In this document: positions 1 through 51,327 of the stretch, piece by piece
Numbering within the stretch: position 1 is the stretch's first letter
Layout of the letters: every line of letters begins with the position of its first letter
From: a virus
Virus record (IMG/VR): IMGVR_UViG_3300010354_000127
Coordinates: 1-51,327 of that record
Reading direction: 5' to 3' (one strand)
Length of the DNA: 51,327 nucleotides
Translations under genes and position numbers: made by a program
The notes under the pieces: generated by a model
Seen by the model: the letters and a program-made list of their open reading frames with translations, nothing else
Told to the model about the DNA's origin: nothing
The model's database searches: none

Positions 1-11
1 GCTCGCGGACC
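1..11. repeat. Terminal direct repeat, left copy
   Basis: GCTCGCGGACC here is identical to 51317-51327. It may be the cohesive-end sequence shown at both ends, or a residual overlap of a circular assembly. Either way the genome closes as a circle here. Confidence 0.7.
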
Positions 12-136
12 CGCAGGCATTTTGGAACCGGAGGACCCAAAGGGGTGGGGGTGGTTCCGAAAGCCCGAGGCGCGGGAGGCGGCTGGGAGGCGGCCTGGGA
101 GGCGTCTGGGAGGCGTCTGGGAGGGGCGCACGGGGG
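1..136. other. Right flank of the putative cos site with GGAACC elements and an 11-bp tandem repeat
   Basis: No gene is seen. Positions 1-11 repeat the last 11 bases of the window. TTTTGGAACC lies at 20-29 and GGTTCCGAAA, the exact reverse complement of TTTCGGAACC, at 53-62. From 74 to 126 there are about 4.5 tandem copies of an 11-12-mer, GGGAGGCGKCT (74-84, 85-96, 97-107, 108-118, then a partial), one per DNA helical turn. On the circular molecule this lies on the side of the joined ends away from the terminase genes, where a cosQ-like or bending site would be expected. The cos reading is inference; the repeats are seen directly. Confidence 0.5.
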
Positions 137-691
137 TCAGCGCCCGAAGCCGCGTCCCATGGCCCCCAGGGCGCGCAGGATGCCCTTCTCCAGCGCGTCC
201 TCGATGCGCACCTCGGTGCGTGCCTGGAGCGCAGGTGCCCACTTGCCCCCCGTGTAGATGGCGTGGATGGAGGGACCGTGGATGACGTCGAGGGGCATGC
301 GCGCCTTGGTGCGGCGCTTGAAGGGCTTGCCCTTGGCCATGAAGCCTGACTTCACCACGCTGCGCTCACCGCGGTAGATGCTCATGCTCAGGCCCGTGCG
401 GGTTTCGCGGGGCTTGAACTGCATGGCGGTGATGGGCTTGCGGTTGGTGCGGATGACTGCGGTTTGGCCACCGTCGGAGAACTGAGCAGGGGAGACGTCC
501 TGCTTGATGCGTCCTGCGGTGAGGCTGTAGCGCTGACCGATGGACTTGGCCAGGGTGGTGCGTCCTGCTCTGGCGGCATCACGGACACCGGCCTTGATGG
601 CCTTGGGGATGTCGTGGCTGGAGAGCTTGGAGAGGGTCTGAGCCAGCTCGGAGTCCCCGAGGATCCGTGCCGTGATGTCGATGCGGGCCAT
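137..691 (-). CDS. Phage minor tail protein Z-like (GPZ family)
   Basis: 184 aa. It matches the GPZ family (lambda Z, thought to act at the head-proximal end of the tail, possibly on the DNA end) in layout: an N-terminal helical part with DAARAGRTTLAKSIGQRY, a central beta part, and the C-terminal block PLDVIHGPSIHAIYT with the family-typical GPS. The ATG at 691 is chosen because the protein aligns from MARIDITARI; a longer frame to 784 runs into repeat-rich non-coding DNA. The gene lies alone between VapE and the cos end, far from the other tail genes. In lambda, Z sits between FII and U. Family call from remembered motifs, fairly sure. Confidence 0.7.
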   Translation of the reverse strand: MARIDITARILGDSELAQTLSKLSSHDIPKAIKAGVRDAARAGRTTLAKSIGQRYSLTAGRIKQDVSPAQFSDGGQTAVIRTNRKPITAMQFKPRETRTGLSMSIYRGERSVVKSGFMAKGKPFKRRTKARMPLDVIHGPSIHAIYTGGKWAPALQARTEVRIEDALEKGILRALGAMGRGFGR

Positions 692-910
692 GGGTGGGGT
701 GTTCCTACTGGTCGGTCTGGTCAGAACGTAGACGGTGCCTGGGATCTGCGGAGGTGTTCCAACCTGTTCCCACCGTCCTACCAAGTTTCATTCGCGGGCC
801 CACGCTCCCAATACTGCCCCTTATCCCCCCTCTTATTATTACTCTTCCCTTTAGGTAGGAAGGTAGGAACAGTAGGAACAACGTAGGCAGGGACTGGGGT
901 TTCGATGTTC
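692..910. repeat. Iteron cluster GTTCCTACC/GGTAGGAAC, candidate origin or operator
   Basis: Non-coding stretch between the GPZ-like and primase genes, extending into the 3' end of the primase gene (to 935). Nonamers related to GTTCCTACC lie at 701-709, 756-764, 766-774 and 775-782 (lacking one T); the inverted form GGTAGGAAC lies at 854-862, 862-870 and 871-879. A perfect 9-bp inverted pair sits at 907-915 and 927-935. Spacing within the groups is 8-10 bp. Between the two groups is an AT-richer stretch (about 820-853) in otherwise GC-rich DNA. Iterons plus an AT-rich block beside an initiator-type primase gene is the usual form of a replication origin; function is inferred. Confidence 0.5.
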
Positions 911-22817: not shown

Positions 22818-23801
22818 TCAGCCTCCTCCGGTGAGCTGAATCAGGGGCCGCAGGGTGTCCGTCACCTTCGGATCGACCTTCAGGATCTCGCCCAAGGTGG
22901 CGGTGCTGTCGAGCAGGGTGCTCACCGACTGCAGATCCTCCGGCTTCGCCAGGCCCGACGCCTGCAGCGCTGGCGCACCCACCAGCGAGGCTGCCTCGAG
23001 CGCGATCGCCATCCCGGTCGGGCCGTTGCCGGTGGCATAGGCCTGAGCCAGGTTGGCGGCGTTGATCCCGATCTGTGCCCAGGCATCGTTCTGGTCGACG
23101 TTGATCCCCAGCACGCCCATGGTGCCGAGTGCCGCGCCCACATAGTCGCCGCTGGAGATCTGGCCGGCGAGCCTGATGCCGGTCTGGGCGATGCTGGCCA
23201 GCTGGCCCAGGCCGAAGCCTGCCTGCGTCGCCTGCTGGGTCAGCGCCTGGAAGGGTGACTTCTGCGTCCAGTCGACGAGGCCGAATGAGCTGCCGAAGCC
23301 GGTGAAGTCGAGGGCGCCAGCCGGCAGCTGCAGGCCCTGTGCGACGAAGCCGGCCGCGGCGCCGAGGGCCGGCGCGACGCTCAGCGGGCTGGCGGCAAGG
23401 CCGGGGTTGTCGTCGGCGTAATAGACCAGCTGCACGGAGAACGTGATCTGCCTGGCAGCACCACCCGGGGCGAAGACGCCGCGGCCCTCACGCAGCTGCT
23501 TGATCGCCCACTTCCCGTAGATCCTCCCCAGGCCGTCGGAGAGCATGAGCGGCTTGCCTGCGCGCGCGATGGCCCGCAGCTCCTCGACGGTGCCCTGCCG
23601 GCCGCTGAAGCCTGGGTAGAGCACCCCCTCCATCGTGATGTCCTGGGCGCCAGGCCCGAGGAACTGCTGAGCGGGATCGCGCAGCAGCCGGCCCTGTTCC
23701 TCCCATCGGTAGGAGGCGTCCCAGTCGAGGGTCTGGGGTGCGCCGTTGAGCAGGGAGAACTGGAAGTCGCCGAGCTGGTAGAGCGGTGTGGTGCTGCTCA
23801 T
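22818..23801 (-). CDS. Tail completion protein U-like, extended
   Basis: 327 aa from the ATG at 23801. Residues 1-140 (MSSTTPLYQLGDFQFSLLNGAPQTLDW, RLLRDPAQQFLGPGAQDITMEGVLYPGF, ITFSVQLVYYADD) match the P2 gpU family. The second half is Ala/Gly-rich and helical (SIAQTGIRLAGQISSGDYVGAALGTMGVLG) with no recognised domain. P2 gpU is about half as long, so the C-terminal extension is special to this line. Confidence 0.78.
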   Translation of the reverse strand: MSSTTPLYQLGDFQFSLLNGAPQTLDWDASYRWEEQGRLLRDPAQQFLGPGAQDITMEGVLYPGFSGRQGTVEELRAIARAGKPLMLSDGLGRIYGKWAIKQLREGRGVFAPGGAARQITFSVQLVYYADDNPGLAASPLSVAPALGAAAGFVAQGLQLPAGALDFTGFGSSFGLVDWTQKSPFQALTQQATQAGFGLGQLASIAQTGIRLAGQISSGDYVGAALGTMGVLGINVDQNDAWAQIGINAANLAQAYATGNGPTGMAIALEAASLVGAPALQASGLAKPEDLQSVSTLLDSTATLGEILKVDPKVTDTLRPLIQLTGGG

Positions 23802-23803
23802 GA

Positions 23804-26800
23804 TCAGTCGTTCAGGAGCACGCGATGGGAGGACTCGAGCTCGCGCTGGATGTCGGCGAAGGCGAGCTCCACCTGACGGCGGATCTCCAGTGCATCGCCT
23901 CCTGAGCCACCTGCGTGGATGGTAACGGGGGCATGGATGGTGACCGGTGCGACGGCCCGTTGCTGCTGCTGCGGGGGCAGCGGGGCGGGCACGTTGATGG
24001 CCGGCGCCGGCGGTGCCTCGGCTGGAGCAGCAGGAGCCGTCAGCGCGATCCGGTTGATCACCGGCGACGCCATTTGGGCCGGGCCTGCGAACTGCGGCGT
24101 GGGCAGGTTGATCAGCGGCGCGACGGGCTGCGGCGCGGTCAGGTTGACGGCCGGTGCGGGGACCATCAGGGGGGCAGGGGCCCCAGGCGCCGCGATGTTC
24201 ATGGTGGGCGGCGGCACCAGCTGGGGCGCGGGGGCGCTGGCGGCTGCCACGTTCACCGTCGGCGAGGCGACGCGCACAGCTGGCGCTGGGGCCACGGCCG
24301 CCGGAGGAGCGGCGACGCGCGGCGCAGGGAGGTTGATCAGCGGCCGAGGTGCATCGGGCGCTGCCAGGGTCACAGCCGGCGGCGGCACCAGCTGGGGGGC
24401 GGGGGCGCCTACCACGTTCACAGTCGGTGGTGCTGCGACGCGGGGGGGCGCGACGTTGACAGCCGGCGGCGGCACCAGCTGCTGGGGCTGGACCGCAGGG
24501 GCCGCGACATTCACCATGGGCGCCGCGACGCGCACCATCGGCGCCTGCGGCTGAGGCATCGCCGGGGCGGCCGCGGCCATCGCCACCATCGGCGGCGGTG
24601 CATCGATCCGCACCATCGGCTGCGGCAGCATCTCTGCGGCCACCGGCTGCGCGGCCAGCATTGCGGCCACCGCACCAGCGGTCAGCGGCTGGGCGACGCG
24701 CGGGATGATCGCCCCGTTGAACTCTGGCCAGAACAGCTCGGCCCGCCGCTCGCCCACGATGTAGGGGGAGCCCTTCCGCACACGGCCGCCGGTCGCGCGC
24801 GGCTGCGGCGCCCTGCCAGGGGAGGCGGCACGCGCGACAGCAGAACGCCCCGGTGCAATCGGCTGCGGCCGCGCCACGTTCGCCGTGTCGGCAGGGCCAC
24901 CGCTCACCATGCTCTTGATGCGGCTCCAGGTGGAGCCGATCCAGCCGAACAGCGCGCCGGCACGGGACTTGAGGCCGTTCATGATCGCCTCGATCACCGC
25001 GCTGCCGACGCTGGCGACACGGCCAGGCGTCTGCCGGATGAAGGCGACGACGCGGTTGAAGATCGCCTGGATGCCAGGCGCCAGGCGCTGGAAGGCGCCG
25101 ACGATCAGGCCCGGGATGGGGAAGATGATCCTGAGGATCTGCGGACCCCACGCGCGCACGACGGCCAGCGCCCTGGCCCAGGTTTGGGCCATGAAGGTGC
25201 CGATGCTGGTGAACAGCGACCGGATGGCCGGGCCGAGGGCCTGCAGTGCCGACATCATCTGGCCTGGCAGCGCGGCGACGATCGCCAGCCCCTGCACGGC
25301 CCAGCTGCGGATCGCCGCCAGGCCGCTGCTCAGCGTCTGGCCGATGCCCAGCACGACGGCACCGAGGCCCTGCAGCCCAGCCGAGAAGCCGGTGACGACG
25401 AACCGGCCCATGCCGATCGCCTGCTGCAGCAGCCCAGCACCGATCTGATCCAGGCCGCTGAAGGCCTGCGCGATGCCGGCGACAGCCTGGCCCGGGTTCA
25501 GGGTGAAGACCCCGACGAGGGTGTTCCAGATCCCCCGGGCGACGTTGACCACGCCGGTCAGCGCGGTCCTGACGCCCTCGATCATCTGCCCCAGGCCGGC
25601 GCCCATGATCGCCGCCCACCCCTGCTGGGCCAGCCGCGCGCCTTGGCTGAAGAGGCCGCCGATCCAGGTGGTGAACTGCCCCCATCCGGCCTTGATCCCC
25701 TCCCATGCGCGCGCCGCCGCGGCGCTGACCTGCGGCCAGTATTTGACGAGCGCGAAGATCGCGGCGCCGATGCCGCCGATCAGGGCGATCCATGGCAGCA
25801 GCGGCAGCATGGCGGCGAAGGCTGCGCCTCCGACGGTCGTGAGGCCTGCGACGGCGGTGCCGACGAAGCCGGCGATGGCGGTGCCGATTGCTGCGAGGGC
25901 CGGCCCGACGACGCCCAGCGCGCCGGCGATCGTGGCGCCGAGGCCACTGAACCAGCCGGCGACGATGCCGATGCTGCCCAGCCAGCCGGCGATCGTGGCG
26001 CCCAGCGACACGCCGGCCAGGGCGGTGCCGATGGTGCCGATCGCGCTGATCACCCCGGCGATGATCGGCAGCGCCACCACCAGGCCGGCCAGCGCACCGC
26101 CAATCAGCACGATGCCGGTCACCAGGCCCTGGTTGTTCTGCGCGAACTCAGCGAAGCGGACCATCACCGGGCCGATCGCCTTCATGATCGCGTTCAGGCT
26201 CGGCAGGATCGCCGCGCCGATGCTCACCCCGAGGGCATTGAGGCCGTTCTGGAAGATCTTCGCCTGGGCCCCGGCGGTGCCCATCTGGTTGTTGAACTCC
26301 TTCTGCATCGAGCCGGCGAAGGCCTGCTTGTCGCGGATGAGGTCGAACGCCTGGCCGATCAGCTTCGTGTTCGTCAGCAGCGGCATGATCGCCGCCTTGC
26401 TCTCCTCGCCGAACAGGGCGCCGGCGATGCTGACCTGCTGCTCTTTCGGCAGCTTGGCCATCTTCTCGAGGACGCTCTTCATCGTCCCTTCCGGGTCGAT
26501 CTGCATCCCCTTCGCCAGCTCCTCGGAGATGTCCATGGCGGCACCCTTCGCCGCCTTCTTGATTGCCCCCTTGCCGCCCTTGATCTGCGCCGCCAGGTCC
26601 TCGCCGCGGAACAGGGTCGCCAGGGCGAACTGCTGATTGGTCGTCGCCTGGCTGCCCTTCGTCAGCGCGTTCAGGAAGTTCTTCAGGCCGGTGGCCGCCA
26701 CCTCCGTCGGGGTGCCGCTGGCCAGGAACGCCGCGCCCATCCCCGCCACCTGCTCAGCGGTCAGGCCGGCGGCCTTGCCGATCGCGCCGATCCGCCGCGT

Positions 26801-28413: not shown

Positions 28414-29832
28414 TCAGCGGAACAGGTCGACGACGTAGCTGTTGACCAGGTGGCTGCGGAACGTGACTCGCTCAGCCGGGAAGGGCGGAGTGAAGTCGAA
28501 GTCGAAGAACACCTGCCCGTTGGCGATGCTCGTCGGGCTGTTCAGTTCGGGATCGACCCAGACGTCGCCGCCGAGGATGGCGCCGCGCGACTGGAGATTG
28601 CGGAGATAGCCCCGCACGCTCTCCTGAACCTCCTCGAGGTAGGTGGCGGTGATGCAGCGGTCAACGGCCCAGAGGTGACCGCGCAGGATGGACTCGTTGA
28701 TCATGTCGGCCGTGCGCCGGACCGACAGGAAGGCGTACTTCGGATCCATCGCCAGGGTGCGGTTGCCCCACAGGCGGAAGCCCTGCTCGCGAACGATCGT
28801 CGCGATCTTCGATTCGTTGAGCAGGTTGGCCCGGGAGGTGTAGTCGCCCAGGGCGAAGTCGATGGCACGTGCGGTGCCCTCGATGCCGGCGATCTCGTTG
28901 TTGGAAGGGCTCCACCAGAAGCCGCGCTCGTTGTCGACCTTGTTGATCAGGCCGGCGACGGCGGCGGAGGCAGGCACAGCGGCGCCGTCGCGCAGCACCC
29001 AGGGATCGACCACGTAGATGCGGTCGCTGCCGAAGTCGTCGGCGATCTGGATGGCGGCAGCGTCGGTGGTGTTGGGCCCGTCGGCGACGATGACCGCGCG
29101 GAGGCGGAAGGCGATGCCGAGCAGTTCAGCCAGCACCTCGGAGCGAACGGTGCCGCGGTTGATGGTGCCGGCCGTGGCCTGGGTGCCGCCGCTGGGCGGT
29201 GCACCGATCGTGACGGTGGGGTTGGTGGCGTAGCCCGAGCCAGGGTCGGTGATGGTGATGCTCACCACCTTGCCGGCGTTTTCGCCGGTGCCGAGCACCG
29301 CCACCGCCGTGGCCTGCTTGCCGCCACCAGCAGGGGCGGCAATGGTGACCGCCGGGGCCGTGGTGTAGCCAGCCCCCTGGTTCTGCACGGCGATCGAGAG
29401 GATCCCGTTGGTGCTGCGCTGATGGGTGAACCCAGGAGCGATGAGGATGCGGGGTGCGAAGCCCACGGCGCCCTCGGCGGCCAGGAAGGCATGCACGCCC
29501 TCATAGGCGCCGGTGCCGTTGTTGATCCCGCCTCGGACGTTGTTGATGGTGGCACCTTCGTTGAGGCCCTCGGCCACTCGCACCACCACGACCACGGCGC
29601 CGGCCTGGTCGTAGATCAGGTCCAGTGCGGAGGGGAGAGTGCCGGTTTCACCGAGGCCCTGCATCTCACCCCGGCGCGTCACGAGGACGGGGGTATTGAG
29701 GGGGAAGGCATCGGCATCGGCATCAGGAGCAGTGCCGATCAGACCGATCACGCTGGAGCGGATGGTCTGAATGGGGCGAGCTCCAGTGTCGACCTGGAGA
29801 ACCTCCACACCGTGGAGAAAGGTGGTAGTCAT
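28414..29832 (-). CDS. Contractile tail sheath protein (P2 FI-like)
   Basis: 472 aa, ATG at 29832 with AGGAGG. Sheath family marks: N-terminal FLHGVEVLQVDTGARPIQTIRSSVIGLIGTAPDADAD, central RIYVVDPWVL and C-terminal RLWGNRTLAMDPKYAFLSVRRTADMINESI with the conserved domain that binds the tube. An inserted beta part (about 150-225) has two GxGYTxxPxVTI repeats rich in Gly. Defines this as a myovirus-type tail. Confidence 0.93.
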   Translation of the reverse strand: MTTTFLHGVEVLQVDTGARPIQTIRSSVIGLIGTAPDADADAFPLNTPVLVTRRGEMQGLGETGTLPSALDLIYDQAGAVVVVVRVAEGLNEGATINNVRGGINNGTGAYEGVHAFLAAEGAVGFAPRILIAPGFTHQRSTNGILSIAVQNQGAGYTTAPAVTIAAPAGGGKQATAVAVLGTGENAGKVVSITITDPGSGYATNPTVTIGAPPSGGTQATAGTINRGTVRSEVLAELLGIAFRLRAVIVADGPNTTDAAAIQIADDFGSDRIYVVDPWVLRDGAAVPASAAVAGLINKVDNERGFWWSPSNNEIAGIEGTARAIDFALGDYTSRANLLNESKIATIVREQGFRLWGNRTLAMDPKYAFLSVRRTADMINESILRGHLWAVDRCITATYLEEVQESVRGYLRNLQSRGAILGGDVWVDPELNSPTSIANGQVFFDFDFTPPFPAERVTFRSHLVNSYVVDLFR

Positions 29833-46840: not shown

Positions 46841-48754
46841 TCAGTCCCAGAACGACGACCTGGCCGGTGCCGGCGCCGACTCCGCTGCATCGTCCTCGCG
46901 CTTCGTCTCCACCGGCTGCGGCCGCGCCACACCACCCGACGCCTCCTCGTCCCATCGCTCGTCGCTCCACCGGTCAGCACCCACCAGGGCGGCCGCGGCC
47001 CGGGCATAGACCCGGCAGTCCAGCGCCTCGTTCCGGGGCCGGGTCTTGATCCACTCGAACCGGGTGTAGCCCCGCCGGTCGACCGTGTTCGTCAGCCGCT
47101 CGGCGCACAGCTGCCGGAACCACTCCTCCCCATACTGCGGGAAGTGGCACCAGCCATGGGGCAGCGGCTCACCCTGATCTGGCATCGGCCGCCGCAGCCA
47201 GCCGTAGAGCTCGCTCTTCACCGTGCCGCTACCCACCGGCCAGACCTTCACGCCACCGCGCAGCGGCCGGCCATTGCGCAGCACCTCCACCCGGCCAGGC
47301 GTGCCGATGATCGCCGTCTGCGTCTCCTGGCCCTTGATGGCGATCACCCGATGCCCGGCCTGGCCACGCACCCAGCGGTAGACCTCCTGGCTCCTGAAGC
47401 CCGAGTCGATCGCCGTCATCCTGATCGGCAGCCGCTGCCCATCACCCCGGCCGAACTCCGACCGCACGAACCGGCTCAGCTCTCGCCACACCTCTGGCTG
47501 CGCCGTGTCGCCCGCCAGCACCTGGTAGTCCAGGCTCCAGCTCTCCATCCCGCGGCCCCAGCCCACCACCTCCAGCTCGATCCGATCCATCTGCACGTCG
47601 ATGCCGCAGGTGAGGAACACCACCGGGTCGGGCACCGTGCCCAGCTCATAGACCTCGCGGCGGTTGTAGAGCGCCTCCCAGTCCGGCGCCTCGCCGTCGT
47701 CGTTCCAGCATTCCGCCAGCACCGTGTTGGTCCAGGGCTTCAGCTCCGCCGGGTTGTCCTTCGCCTTCTCGTAGCCCACCACCGCATCGGTCCAGCTGAA
47801 CCATCCCAGCGGCGCATAGAGCGCCGAGCAGTGGTAGCCCTGCACGCTCCGCTCGGGGAACGTCGGCTCCCACCAGTCGTCGGTGAAGACCTCGGGGTCA
47901 TACCACCAGGCCTTCGTGTCCTCCTCAATCCCCTCGCCACACTCCTCGCAGATCAGCACCGGCGGGGTCCGCAGCGTGTTCGGCAGGCCAGGGTCCTTCG
48001 GGTCGTACCGGATCCGGTCCCACACGATCGACTGCCGATGATTGCAGTGCGGGCAGGGCAGCAGCAGGTGCTGCTGGTTGCTGTCCTCCCACTTCGACCA
48101 GATCGCGCTGCGGCCCGCGATCGTCGGAGTCGACGTCCACGCTTGTTTCTTCCGCACGCCGAACGTTCGGGTGCGGGCCGTCACGATCGCCAGCGGGCTG
48201 CCTTCCTCGTCGACGTCGCTCGGCCACCGGTCGATCTCGTCCCCGCCCAGGTAGCGGATCGGCATCGAGGCCAGGCCGCTCGCGGCGTTCGCGCCACCGA
48301 GGATCAGGAAGCCCCCGGTGAACTCCTTCATCAGCTGCGTGTTGCCGCTGTCCCGCTCTCGCGGCGCCTTCACCTTCTCCTGCAAGCTCGGGCTCGCCTC
48401 GATCATCGGGGCGATGCGCATCTTGCTGTAGCGCTTCGCCAGATCGATCGTCGGCTGCACGAACAGCGCCGGCCCTGGCGCGATGTCCATCGTGTAGCCG
48501 GTCCAGTTGTTCAGCGCCTCGCTCTTCCCCATCTGGCTGCCGAACACCAGCACCACCTCCTGCACCGTGCTGGTGGCCGACAGGTCGTCCATCGGCTTCC
48601 GCAGGTAGGGCGTCCTGCTCGTCCGCCACGGACCGTGCTCACTCGAGGCCTTCGGGCTCAGGATCCGCCGCTGGTCCGCCCACTCGCTGACCGTCAGCAG
48701 CGGGTCCGGCTCCAGGCCCCGCCGGAACGCGCGCCGGCACTCCTCAATCAGCAT
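46841..48754 (-). CDS. Terminase large subunit (lambda gpA family)
   Basis: 637 aa. WRTSRTPYLRKPMDDLSATSTVQEVVLVFGSQMGKSEALNNW carries the Walker-A-like GSQMGKSE (72-79). MPIRYLGGDEIDRWPSDVDEEG holds the Walker B. A zinc site CPHC...CEEC is typical of gpA. The nuclease part begins at LTCGIDVQMDRIELEVVGWG with its Asp cluster. Cuts at cos and pumps DNA. Start overlaps the small subunit end. Confidence 0.95.
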   Translation of the reverse strand: MLIEECRRAFRRGLEPDPLLTVSEWADQRRILSPKASSEHGPWRTSRTPYLRKPMDDLSATSTVQEVVLVFGSQMGKSEALNNWTGYTMDIAPGPALFVQPTIDLAKRYSKMRIAPMIEASPSLQEKVKAPRERDSGNTQLMKEFTGGFLILGGANAASGLASMPIRYLGGDEIDRWPSDVDEEGSPLAIVTARTRTFGVRKKQAWTSTPTIAGRSAIWSKWEDSNQQHLLLPCPHCNHRQSIVWDRIRYDPKDPGLPNTLRTPPVLICEECGEGIEEDTKAWWYDPEVFTDDWWEPTFPERSVQGYHCSALYAPLGWFSWTDAVVGYEKAKDNPAELKPWTNTVLAECWNDDGEAPDWEALYNRREVYELGTVPDPVVFLTCGIDVQMDRIELEVVGWGRGMESWSLDYQVLAGDTAQPEVWRELSRFVRSEFGRGDGQRLPIRMTAIDSGFRSQEVYRWVRGQAGHRVIAIKGQETQTAIIGTPGRVEVLRNGRPLRGGVKVWPVGSGTVKSELYGWLRRPMPDQGEPLPHGWCHFPQYGEEWFRQLCAERLTNTVDRRGYTRFEWIKTRPRNEALDCRVYARAAAALVGADRWSDERWDEEASGGVARPQPVETKREDDAAESAPAPARSSFWD

Positions 48755-49316
48755 CGGCCGCCAACCCCTCCAGGGCCTTCACGATATGGCGCTCCAGTAC
48801 CAGCAGCACCTCCGCACGCTGCTCCGGCGTCAGCCCCCCGGCCGCCCGGGCGATGTCGCCGATCATCAGCTGCGGAGTCCGCCGCAGCGAGTCGCGCACC
48901 CGCTGGCCCTCCTCGAACCACACCCGCTCCACATCCGCCTTCGGCACCAGCTGGCCCTGGCGCTCCTTCAGATCCAGCTCGAGGAGCTTCGCCTGGTAGA
49001 GCGTCCGCAGCGCCTGGGCCTGCGCATGGCTCGGCGCCTTCGCCAGCACATCCGTGCCGCTGCCCGCGCTCGGTGGCTGCCGCCCCTCGATCTCCCGCGC
49101 GCGCTCCGCCGCCTTGCCCCGCTGCTTCGCCGGTGACGTGTTCCGCTGCCATTCCCGGTCCGCAATCTCTGGATCGATCAGCCACCCAGGCCGCCCGGGC
49201 CGGCCGTTCGCCTCCCGCTTCGCGCCCTCCTTGATCCGACCTTCCGCAATCGCCTTCCGCACCGCACGGCCAGACACTCCGCGCTGCTCTGCGTAGTCGT
49301 CGAGGGAGATCAGCAC
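48744..49316 (-). CDS. Terminase small subunit (Nu1-like)
   Basis: 190 aa with a GTG start at 49316. ISLDDYAEQRGVSGRAVRKAIAEGRIKEG is a Nu1-type winged HTH for cosB; QALRTLYQAKLLELDLKERQGQLVPKADVERVWFEEGQRVRDSLRRTPQLM is the family helical region that joins the large subunit. Expected targets are GGAACC-type repeats near the window ends. Confidence 0.88.
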   Translation of the reverse strand: MLISLDDYAEQRGVSGRAVRKAIAEGRIKEGAKREANGRPGRPGWLIDPEIADREWQRNTSPAKQRGKAAERAREIEGRQPPSAGSGTDVLAKAPSHAQAQALRTLYQAKLLELDLKERQGQLVPKADVERVWFEEGQRVRDSLRRTPQLMIGDIARAAGGLTPEQRAEVLLVLERHIVKALEGLAADAD

Positions 49317-49588: not shown

Positions 49589-49964
49589 CGAACCCGGCAA
49601 CGAACGGCCTGATGCAGCTGGCAGGCGCATCCTGCCAGGGCATGAGCACCTGGGTGCCGCGGCTTGCCGTCATCACTCCCGACCCAACCGGGCACACGCG
49701 CACCCATGACCAGAGCTCAGCGATCTCCACCCGCAGGTAGCGGGGTGGCGCCTCGAGGACGCCATAGACCAGCAGGCCACCGGCCCGTGGTCGCTCCGTC
49801 ACCTCCAGCCCCAGCCGGTCGGCCAGCGCCCACGCCAGCAGCAGGCCGCCACGGTCCATCCCGCACACGCCAGTCAGATCTCGTCGACACTGCGCCGCAA
49901 TCAGGTCCACTGCCGCGTCGAAGCCCGCCCAAGTCAGCGTCAGCAGCGGCCCGTCGCTGCTCAT
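49581..49964 (-). CDS. Phosphoribosyltransferase-like protein, putative
   Basis: 127 aa from the ATG at 49964. TGVCGMDRGGLLLAWALADRLGLEVT resembles the PRTase-fold region found in phage and plasmid proteins (G.....GG...A..LA..LG). The usual PRPP-binding acidic loop is not obvious, so it may be a degenerate PRTase-fold protein. Overlaps both neighbours. Confidence 0.5.
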   Translation of the reverse strand: MSSDGPLLTLTWAGFDAAVDLIAAQCRRDLTGVCGMDRGGLLLAWALADRLGLEVTERPRAGGLLVYGVLEAPPRYLRVEIAELWSWVRVCPVGSGVMTASRGTQVLMPWQDAPASCIRPFVAGFDD

Positions 49965-50413
49965 CCCTTCCCCGGCACCCACGCCTTGTTCAGCCCGCGG
50001 CCGCGGCCCACCTGCGCAGGCATCCCAGCGCGGTTCACCAGGCGTTGCACCTCCTCGCGCTCCATCCCCAGCCGCTTCTGGATCGTGCGCTCTGGCACTC
50101 CCTCGTCCACCATCCGCCGCACAATGTCCGCCATCCGCAGCACACCATGCGTGCCCCGGGCTCGGTTGTGGCGGATGGTGCTCATCATCCGGTGCACCGG
50201 ATCCAGACGCACCTGCACAGTAGGCACCAGGCCGCCCGTCAGGCCGGCCACTCGCGGATCCGCGCTCACCGTCCACCGGTGGAAGCCATCCACGATCACG
50301 TGGCGGCCATCCACCTCGGGCAGCACCACGGCATAGACCCGCGTGCCGATCTCCTCCAGATCCAGCAGCAGGTCGTTCCGCAGCTTCAGTCCCTCAAACG
50401 CCCGTTCGAGCAT
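49961..50413 (-). CDS. ParB-like protein (1)
   Basis: 150 aa. The ParB core is visible as HVIVDGFHRWTVSADPRV and VPTVQVRLDPVHRMMSTIRHNRARGTHG, followed by an HTH-like part (ADIVRRMVDEGVPERTIQKRLGMEREEVQRLVNRAGM). Without ParA in the window, a role in plasmid-like partition is unlikely; phage ParB-like proteins often act as nucleases or DNA-binding regulators. Overlaps its neighbours. Confidence 0.7.
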   Translation of the reverse strand: MLERAFEGLKLRNDLLLDLEEIGTRVYAVVLPEVDGRHVIVDGFHRWTVSADPRVAGLTGGLVPTVQVRLDPVHRMMSTIRHNRARGTHGVLRMADIVRRMVDEGVPERTIQKRLGMEREEVQRLVNRAGMPAQVGRGRGLNKAWVPGKG

Positions 50414-51128
50414 CCATCCACTCCCGGCAGACCTTCACCAACGCCTCTGGCGTCCCCTCCAGTCCGCTCGCCTCCTTCGCCATCCGCACCGCGCTCAGCA
50501 CTACCTCGCGGTCATCCCACGGCAGGTTCACGCTGAAGACATGGCGCTCCTCCACCTCGCCGCTCTCGGCGGTCGCGTCCGCATCGTCGTCATCGTCCTC
50601 ACCCACGGGCCCCAGGCCCAGGCCTTCCTGCCGCTCCGGCTCCGCCCGCTCCGTCCCGGCAGCAGCAGCCACGCCCTCGAACGATCCCAGGTCCAGGTCA
50701 TCCTGCAGCCGCTGCAGCTCGTCGTCGCTCCAGCCCAGCGCCTCCAGGTCGAAGTCCTCCACCCGCAGCGCCTCGAGCTCCTGCTGCAGCAGCTCCAGAT
50801 CCCAGCCCGCGTTCTCCGCCAGCCGGTTGTCGGCCAGCACATAGGCCCGCCGCTGCTCAGCCGTCAGGTGGTCGAGCACCACCACCGGCACCTGGGCCAG
50901 GCCCAGCCGTCGCGCCGCCTCCAGTCGCCCATGCCCGGCCAGGATCCCGTCCTGCCCGTCCACCAGGATCGGCGCCGTGAAGCCGAACTCCTGGATCGAC
51001 GCCTGGATCTGTTCCAGCTGGCGCTCGGAATGGGTCCTGGCGTTCCGCTCATACGGCTGGAGCCGCTCCAGCGGCCACAGCTCCAACCGTGACGCCATCG
51101 TCGGCGCCTTGCCTTTGCGCTTCGTCAT
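50394..51128 (-). CDS. ParB-like protein (2), lacking the usual methyltransferase
   Basis: 244 aa from the ATG at 51128, first gene of the late convoy. LELWPLERLQPYERNARTHSERQLEQIQASIQEFGFTAPILVDGQDGILAGHGRLEAARRLGLAQVPVVVLDHL is the ParB N-terminal fold that in many phages is fused to a DNA methyltransferase. Here an acidic stretch (GEDDDDDADATAESG) and a short C-terminal domain (VFSVNLPWDDREVVLSAVRMAKEAS) follow instead. Confidence 0.82.
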   Translation of the reverse strand: MTKRKGKAPTMASRLELWPLERLQPYERNARTHSERQLEQIQASIQEFGFTAPILVDGQDGILAGHGRLEAARRLGLAQVPVVVLDHLTAEQRRAYVLADNRLAENAGWDLELLQQELEALRVEDFDLEALGWSDDELQRLQDDLDLGSFEGVAAAAGTERAEPERQEGLGLGPVGEDDDDDADATAESGEVEERHVFSVNLPWDDREVVLSAVRMAKEASGLEGTPEALVKVCREWMDARTGV

Positions 51129-51327
51129 GCGGTCATCAGATCACAGCAGGCTCAGTTTCGGAACCTGACGGAACATCCGCCGGCATCCTCAGTGATCAGA
51201 AAACCCGCCAGAACCTCCTGATTCCCGGTCGCAATTAGCGCGGTCTATTGAGAACCGCAGTCATAGCAGGCGGTTTCGGAACCCATTCTGGAACCTGGCC
51301 CTAGCGAAAAATCGGGGCTCGCGGACC
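51129..51327. other. Putative cosB/cosN region with GGAACC elements
   Basis: No gene is seen. TTTCGGAACC occurs at 51156-51165 and 51274-51283, and TTCTGGAACC at 51287-51296, with a half site at about 51169. Downstream the bases 51317-51327 equal 1-11. Across the joined ends GGG-CGCG-CCC shows partial dyad symmetry. In lambda, Nu1 binds repeated sites between cosN and the terminase genes; the repeats here are in that position. A promoter for the late operon should also lie here, but no convincing box was found. Confidence 0.55.
51317..51327. repeat. Terminal direct repeat, right copy
   Basis: Same 11 bases as the start of the window. The partial dyad GGGnnCGCGnnCCC is centred within it when the ends are joined. 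Confidence 0.7.

Follow-up and report, generated by a model that had tools for sequence, protein, structure and literature searches.

The question raised by this locus is whether the two ends of an uncultured virus sequence are simply the places where a contig stops, or whether they are the physical ends of a chromosome that was cut at a packaging site. The stretch analysed here (hereafter the window) comprises an entire virus record, 51,327 bases long, which had originally been predicted to belong to a cos-packaging phage with cohesive ends of about 10-11 nt, on the grounds, among others, that 11 bases are common to both ends. This identity was exact: the 11-mer GCTCGCGGACC occupies positions 1-11 and 51317-51327 of the window and is absent elsewhere in it, and the computed chance of an 11-base overlap between the ends is ~1e-6. 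Read in the sense of the gene for the terminase large subunit (TerL), the window starts with GGTCCGCGAGC followed directly by CCCGATTTTTCGCTAG. The elements at the two ends are the following:

Positions 51317-51327, minus strand: putative cohesive end at the phage left end, GGTCCGCGAGC (cosN, filled-in copy), on whose first base 12 contigs start.
Positions 1-11, minus strand: putative cohesive end at the phage right end, the same 11-mer.
Positions 137-784, minus strand: GpZ/Neck1-like gene, the last one ahead of the right end (phrog_27, 4.1e-21).

Relatives were gathered with the TerL sequence (46841-48754, minus strand), and two sequence patterns brought further ones. The 12 contigs starting on the same base came from different samples (the window, L012, L013, L021, L023, L031, L037, L039, L056, L058, L059 and L082), and several of them carried other 11-mers (GGCGCCTCGCT, GGCCCCGCGCT, CGCCACCGCGC and CGCACCCGTGC) ahead of the same conserved block. 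On the opposite side, the window, L149 and L197 ended exactly 11 nt past a conserved GCG. At least 25 other contigs traversed the cos site, and the junction that would be formed by the window itself, GGGGCTCGCGGACCCGCAGG, was present in joined form in four contigs, two of which encode a TerL 75% identical to that of the window. Three full-length relatives (51,681, 49,265 and 50,653 bp) overlapped themselves by 127, 123 and 123 bp, respectively, with the cos site internal, indicating that these genomes (49.1-51.6 kb) were closed as circles. In addition, a homologue of the GpZ/Neck1-like gene was located 73-1154 bp ahead of the joined cosN in 23 relatives. Taken together, the fixed ends, the joined forms, the circles and the position of the GpZ/Neck1-like gene before the joined cosN indicate that the window represents a whole linear genome whose unit length is 51,316 bp. 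Its ends are fixed and non-permuted and bear a short identical sequence, as is characteristic of cos-type phages. The prediction of cos packaging was thus borne out by breaks that coincide to the base on either side in unrelated samples, with a length of 11 nt for the ends, and both the joined junction and repeats at the same site were present in the close relatives in which they were sought. By analogy with lambda, the ends would be 11-base sticky ends, presumably single-stranded, cut at a lambda-like packaging site.

Comparison of the joined ends with relatives and with lambda revealed a conserved arrangement around the cut:

Positions 32-38, minus strand: cosQ-like heptamer GGGTCCT, inside the conserved CTTTGGGTCCTCC and 20 nt ahead of the nick, recognised by comparison with lambda and kept in relatives.
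Positions 51301-51316, minus strand: I2-like block CCCGATTTTTCGCTAG, which holds TTTTCGCTA.
Positions 51302-51310, minus strand: TTTTCGCTA, the I2 nonamer, which lambda also has at this offset, 6 nt past the overhang.

The window reads GGGTCCT, 20 nt, GGTCCGCGAGC, CCCGAT and TTTTCGCTA, and the lambda sequence, fetched for this comparison, reads GGGTCCT, 23 nt, GGGCGGCGACCT, CGCGGG and TTTTCGCTA. A cosQ heptamer to the left of cosN, an I2-type sequence to its right and several candidate R sites at the R3 and R1 positions of cosB, which are typical of a lambda-type cos, were all found. Conservation was highest in cosQ, GGGTCCTCC, to the left and in TTTTCGCTAG to the right, neither of which had been named in the original prediction. 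It had relied instead on a partial dyad (GGG..CGCG..CCC) as a mark of cosN; this dyad is centred at 6.5, off the middle of the 11-mer, and found no support in the relatives. When pairing was evaluated about the true midpoint (position 6) in 21 distinct cosN sequences of relatives, a slight excess was observed (0.53 versus 0.47 in shuffled sequences, a value reached by 0 of 300 shuffles), and the dyad argument contributes little to the cos reading. A tract rich in G and C homopolymers (CCCCACCCCCCCCCAC on the phage strand), which is not found in lambda, adjoins cosQ on the left at positions 42-54 of the window and is present in nearly all the relatives.

In 29 of 93 matches, the pattern TTGGGTCCTCC-N15-GCG had a gpA-type TerL gene no more than 5 kb downstream on the same strand; where GG came next the proportion was 25 of 41, and with the reversed pattern it was 0 of 120. 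Other phages carry TTGGGTCCTCC-N15-GCG followed by GGTAATTCGGAC and represent a further cos lineage, whose ends are 12 nt long; contigs L124, L130 and L199 terminate exactly 12 nt past GCG, and L203, L206 and L209 are joined there. Since some contigs retrieved with the pattern end 12 nt past GCG, the 11 nt of the window are a real difference from the related 12-nt sites.

A repeated sequence, TTTCGGAACC, had been proposed as the cosB repeat, and copies or near copies of it lie on both sides of the junction:

Positions 51274-51283 (phage 45-54), minus strand: candidate TerS site GGTTCCGAAA at the R3 position, a repeat that covaries with the terminase small subunit (TerS).
Positions 51156-51165 (phage 163-172), minus strand: candidate TerS site GGTTCCGAAA at the R1 position, aligning with GGTTGCGCAAC of relatives.
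Positions 51286-51295 (phage 33-42), minus strand: imperfect extra copy GGTTCCAGAA.
Positions 20-29, plus strand: TTTTGGAACC, a one-mismatch copy between cosQ and cosN, in whose place L149 has an exact GGTTCCGAA.
Positions 53-62, plus strand: GGTTCCGAAA, an exact inverted copy to the left of cosQ.

The two exact copies, the exact inverted copy and the near copy at position 20 were all where they had been predicted. A further near-exact copy had been placed at 51287; a copy does exist nearby, at 51286-51295, where the other strand reads GGTTCCAGAA, with two mismatches. No other exact copy of TTTCGGAACC occurs in the 51 kb, and all three exact ones are at most 175 nt from the junction. The GGTTCC core was present five times in the 419 nt round the joined ends, versus ~0.2 expected (P ~1e-6). 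An alignment of cosB from 35 genomes showed that phage positions 45-54 and 163-172 are conserved family sites, at which the relatives have either GGTTGCG(CAACC) or GGTTCCG; in one group of phages with Gln17 in TerS the first site is GGTTCCC, which counts against the reading proposed below. The unit is GGTTSCG (GGTTCCG in the window and GGTTGCG in most relatives) and not a fixed TTTCGGAACC, whereas the assignment of the repeats to cosB stands. An inverted repeat, TTCTCAATA...TATTGMGAA, was also observed between the R3-like and R1-like sites of several relatives (in the cosB of L012, L094, L105, L020, L082 and L106, at ~+60 to +110), and is weak in the window at ~51230-51260. At the corresponding place lambda has the IHF site I1 and an inverted R2.

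The genes following cos in the phage sense were then assigned as follows:

Positions 50394-51128, minus strand: ParB_N-domain gene, the first after cos (PF02195, 6.7e-7; phrog_620, 1.2e-56).
Positions 49961-50413, minus strand: second ParB-like gene (phrog_2159, 3.2e-33).
Positions 48744-49316, minus strand: terS, Nu1 family, encoding a winged helix-turn-helix protein in which G16-R17 open the recognition helix (phrog_57, 6.7e-23; structure model).
Positions 46841-48754, minus strand: terL, lambda gpA family, with ATPase and endonuclease domains (PF05876, 8.9e-77; PF20454, 8.2e-88).

The Nu1-like small subunit that had been expected downstream was recovered, with a match to phrog_57 over residues 1-189 of the window TerS, and phrog_57 is also the best family of lambda Nu1. 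The structure model of TerS has an N-terminal helix-turn-helix plus a wing. A direct hhalign comparison of TerS with Nu1 alone was not significant, none of the solved structures was matched by the TerS profile, and a Foldseek search of the model against the PDB returned weak winged helix-turn-helix matches with no E-value below 0.07, so that the link between TerS and Nu1 comes from phrog_57. Between cos and terS, the window and the Rhodobacter gpA phages (gene 1 of RcOceanus) alike carry ParB-like nuclease genes. Tail sheath and P2 GpU-like tail proteins are encoded at 28414-29832 and 22818-25793 of the window; the phage is contractile-tailed, although lambda-like in packaging.

The recognition helix of TerS differed between genomes with the two repeat types. 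In GTTCCG genomes the helix sequence is S-[G/D]-R-A-V-R-K, in GTTGCG genomes [S/V]-[P/V]-Q-A-V-R-K, and residues 16-17 ([G/D]-Arg versus [P/V]-Gln) matched the repeat type in 44 of the 44 distinct cosB/TerS pairs of the enlarged set (41 of 41 in the first set). These residues form the start of the predicted recognition helix in the structure model, whose numbering is one less. On the TerL tree five repeat/residue changes were placed, at least four of them on well-supported branches, and the repeat type shifted with the residue in every independent pair; the sign test gave 0.125, a test that cannot reach 0.05 with only 4-5 independent switches. Lambda Nu1 has Arg17 in the same register, and the first lambda repeat is GTTTCCG, which provides a lead and not a test. 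The covariation between TerS and the repeats is the best argument that the latter constitute a cosB read by TerS. Together with the R3-like and R1-like positions it indicates that the cosB label is right, with TerS as the probable ligand.

Given the fixed ends and joined forms, the shared elements, the families to which the genes belong and the way in which TerS 16-17 covary with the repeats, a lambda-type cos is in our judgement very probably the overall explanation, comprising physical virion ends, a TerS/cosB interaction, 11-base staggered nicks and 5' extensions. On this reading the window starts and stops where the chromosome of a contractile-tailed phage physically ends in the virion. 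If the single-stranded 5' nature of the extension, the binding of TerS to the repeats and the order of steps follow lambda, TerS dimers on the GGTTCCG-type repeats (~+45 and ~+163 from the left end) would place the gpA-type TerL over cosN, and TerL would nick the two strands 11 bases apart, generating 5' single-strand extensions of sequence GGTCCGCGAGC. Packaging would proceed from the TerS/TerL side, which bears cosB, and would halt at the next cos, aided by cosQ (GGGTCCT). After infection of a new host, annealing of the ends would give a 51,316-bp circle.

Several other explanations of the ends were weighed. Short overlaps at contig ends can be left by assemblers, and the 11 bases might be such an artefact or a coincidence; given the chance value calculated above, the breakpoint base common to contigs from different samples whose 11-mers differ, and the self-overlaps of 123-127 bp, not 11, in the closed relatives, this is extremely improbable. 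Contigs both terminate at the breakpoint and traverse it, as would also be expected of an attachment site with integrated and free forms mixed. The breakpoint, however, has the last structural gene before it and the terminase genes after it, cosQ, I2 and R-type repeats are present there, and contigs end on both sides within the same 11-mer, none of them running into bacterial sequence there. The attachment site was rejected on these grounds, and next to no credence is left for it. The third alternative concerns strandedness, which is not readable from contig ends: a filled-in extension looks like an 11-bp terminal repeat, and the presence of the 11-mer on both ends of the window would fit a true double-stranded direct repeat of 11 bp, or the extensions might be 3'. 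End repair during library preparation fills in 5' extensions but trims 3' ones away; 3' extensions would thus vanish from both ends, and the presence of the 11-mer at both of them favours 5' extensions. Lambda gpA, which belongs to the same TerL family, produces 5' extensions (PMC4669245), and we regard a direct repeat or 3' extensions as very unlikely.

As to the repeats, the GGTTCC/GGTTGC elements might be sites of a protein other than TerS, either a parS-like centromere for a ParB-like protein or the target of a regulator of the first operon. Two ParB-like genes are located between cos and terS, and many of the repeats are near-palindromic (GGTTGCGCAACC), both of which fit that possibility. 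Nevertheless, the columns that perfectly separate the repeat types were confined to the DNA-binding domain of TerS (columns 6, 16 and 17, column 6 lacking coverage in part of the genomes), there being 0 of 209 in ParB_N, 0 of 132 in the ParB-like protein and 0 of 629 in TerL, and the spacing of the repeats agrees with R3 and R1. With no separating column in either ParB-like protein, parS sites for these neighbours are disfavoured, and recognition by a protein other than TerS is unlikely.

Unlike the flanking elements, the overhang was variable. Sixteen different 11-mers were found, with variation in both halves, whereas the CG ahead of the nick and the TTTTCGCTAG behind it were nearly constant. 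A divergent GpZ type was found in 7 of 8 cases with C-initial 11-mers versus 0 of 15 with G-initial ones (Fisher 3e-5), and near-identical TerL/TerS/cosB modules occurred with different ends (L026 versus L071, and L041 versus L107). From this association and these differing ends, the right end and the overhang seem to have been exchanged together at cos. The overhang class follows the right-end gene (GpZ type) and not TerL, and cos resembles a recombination joint. We consider it probable that this phage group forms a natural series of TerS-cosB specificities, in which TerS residues 16-17 set GTTCCG or GTTGCG and have switched 4-5 times, cosQ and I2 have stayed fixed, and the overhang has been exchanged with the right-end module at a cos acting as a recombination joint. 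Some of the switches may be module exchanges and not point changes, although a matched TerS-cosB pair would still have been moved.

Close TerL homologues (85-86%) were present in Cyanobium and Synechococcaceae metagenome bins, which makes a freshwater picocyanobacterium the likely host, the binning of phage contigs being weak evidence. When a Cyanobium MAG contig (L107) was examined for flanking host sequence, one side carried genes of the window phage and the other a further set of phage head genes, and a lysogen is therefore not proven. The Cyanobium MAG contig BJHE01000012.1 (L372-L374) carries cos, terminase and tail genes of the window phage plus another terminase (Terminase_6C) and genes for head proteins (DUF4055 and Mu F), and represents either two joined phages or a chimera.

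With assembled sequence as the only input, these results fix the packaging strategy of an uncultured virus, together with its exact ends and its length. Complete cos genomes may go unrecognised in collections because the end repeat is so short (here 11 bp), and GGGTCCTCC-N15-GCG followed by GG provides a usable cos finder for phages with gpA terminases. Packaging specificity has been studied in lambda, 21 and N15 with few natural variants, and the covariation points to a testable specificity switch made up of two residues and one base pair.

Literature searches turned up the work on lambda and N15 and no description of the phage group of the window; the cos/terminase end had no megablast match among annotated phages. 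Among gpA phages, RcOceanus and RcDormio of Rhodobacter capsulatus resemble the window in having a ParB-like gene first, then terS and a gpA-type terL (44% identical). In RcDormio three copies of GTTTCCACTT, probable R sites, follow the start of the record (L217, 1-170). These two phages differ from the window in the repeat, in the helix (SHT; SHTAVGK in RcDormio) and in a degenerate cosQ. The 7-bp cosQ is highly conserved, and I2 is conserved in lambda, 21 and N15 (PMC4669245). Lambda shares with the window the cosQ GGGTCCT, TTTTCGCTA at an identical offset, a first TerS-type site ~45-50 bp in from the left end, a further one at ~+160, a staggered cut, a gpA-family TerL and a Nu1-family TerS. 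It differs in its 12-nt extension GGGCGGCGACCT, which is unlike the 11-nt GGTCCGCGAGC in sequence too, in the distance from cosQ to the nick (23 versus 20 nt) and in the R unit (CGTTTCC versus GGTTSCG), whereas the window has terS ~2 kb from cos, behind ParB-like genes, and a contractile tail. Cohesive-end variation in lambda-like phages affects mainly bases 7-12 (PMC4669245), whereas the group of the window shows variation in the left half of the extension as well. In lambda and 21, as in this group, specificity resides in the TerS recognition helix and the R sites of cosB, with cosQ and I2 constant; the switch involves TerS residues 20 and 24 in lambda and 21, but residues 16-17 in the group of the window, where it has recurred 4-5 times within one clade.
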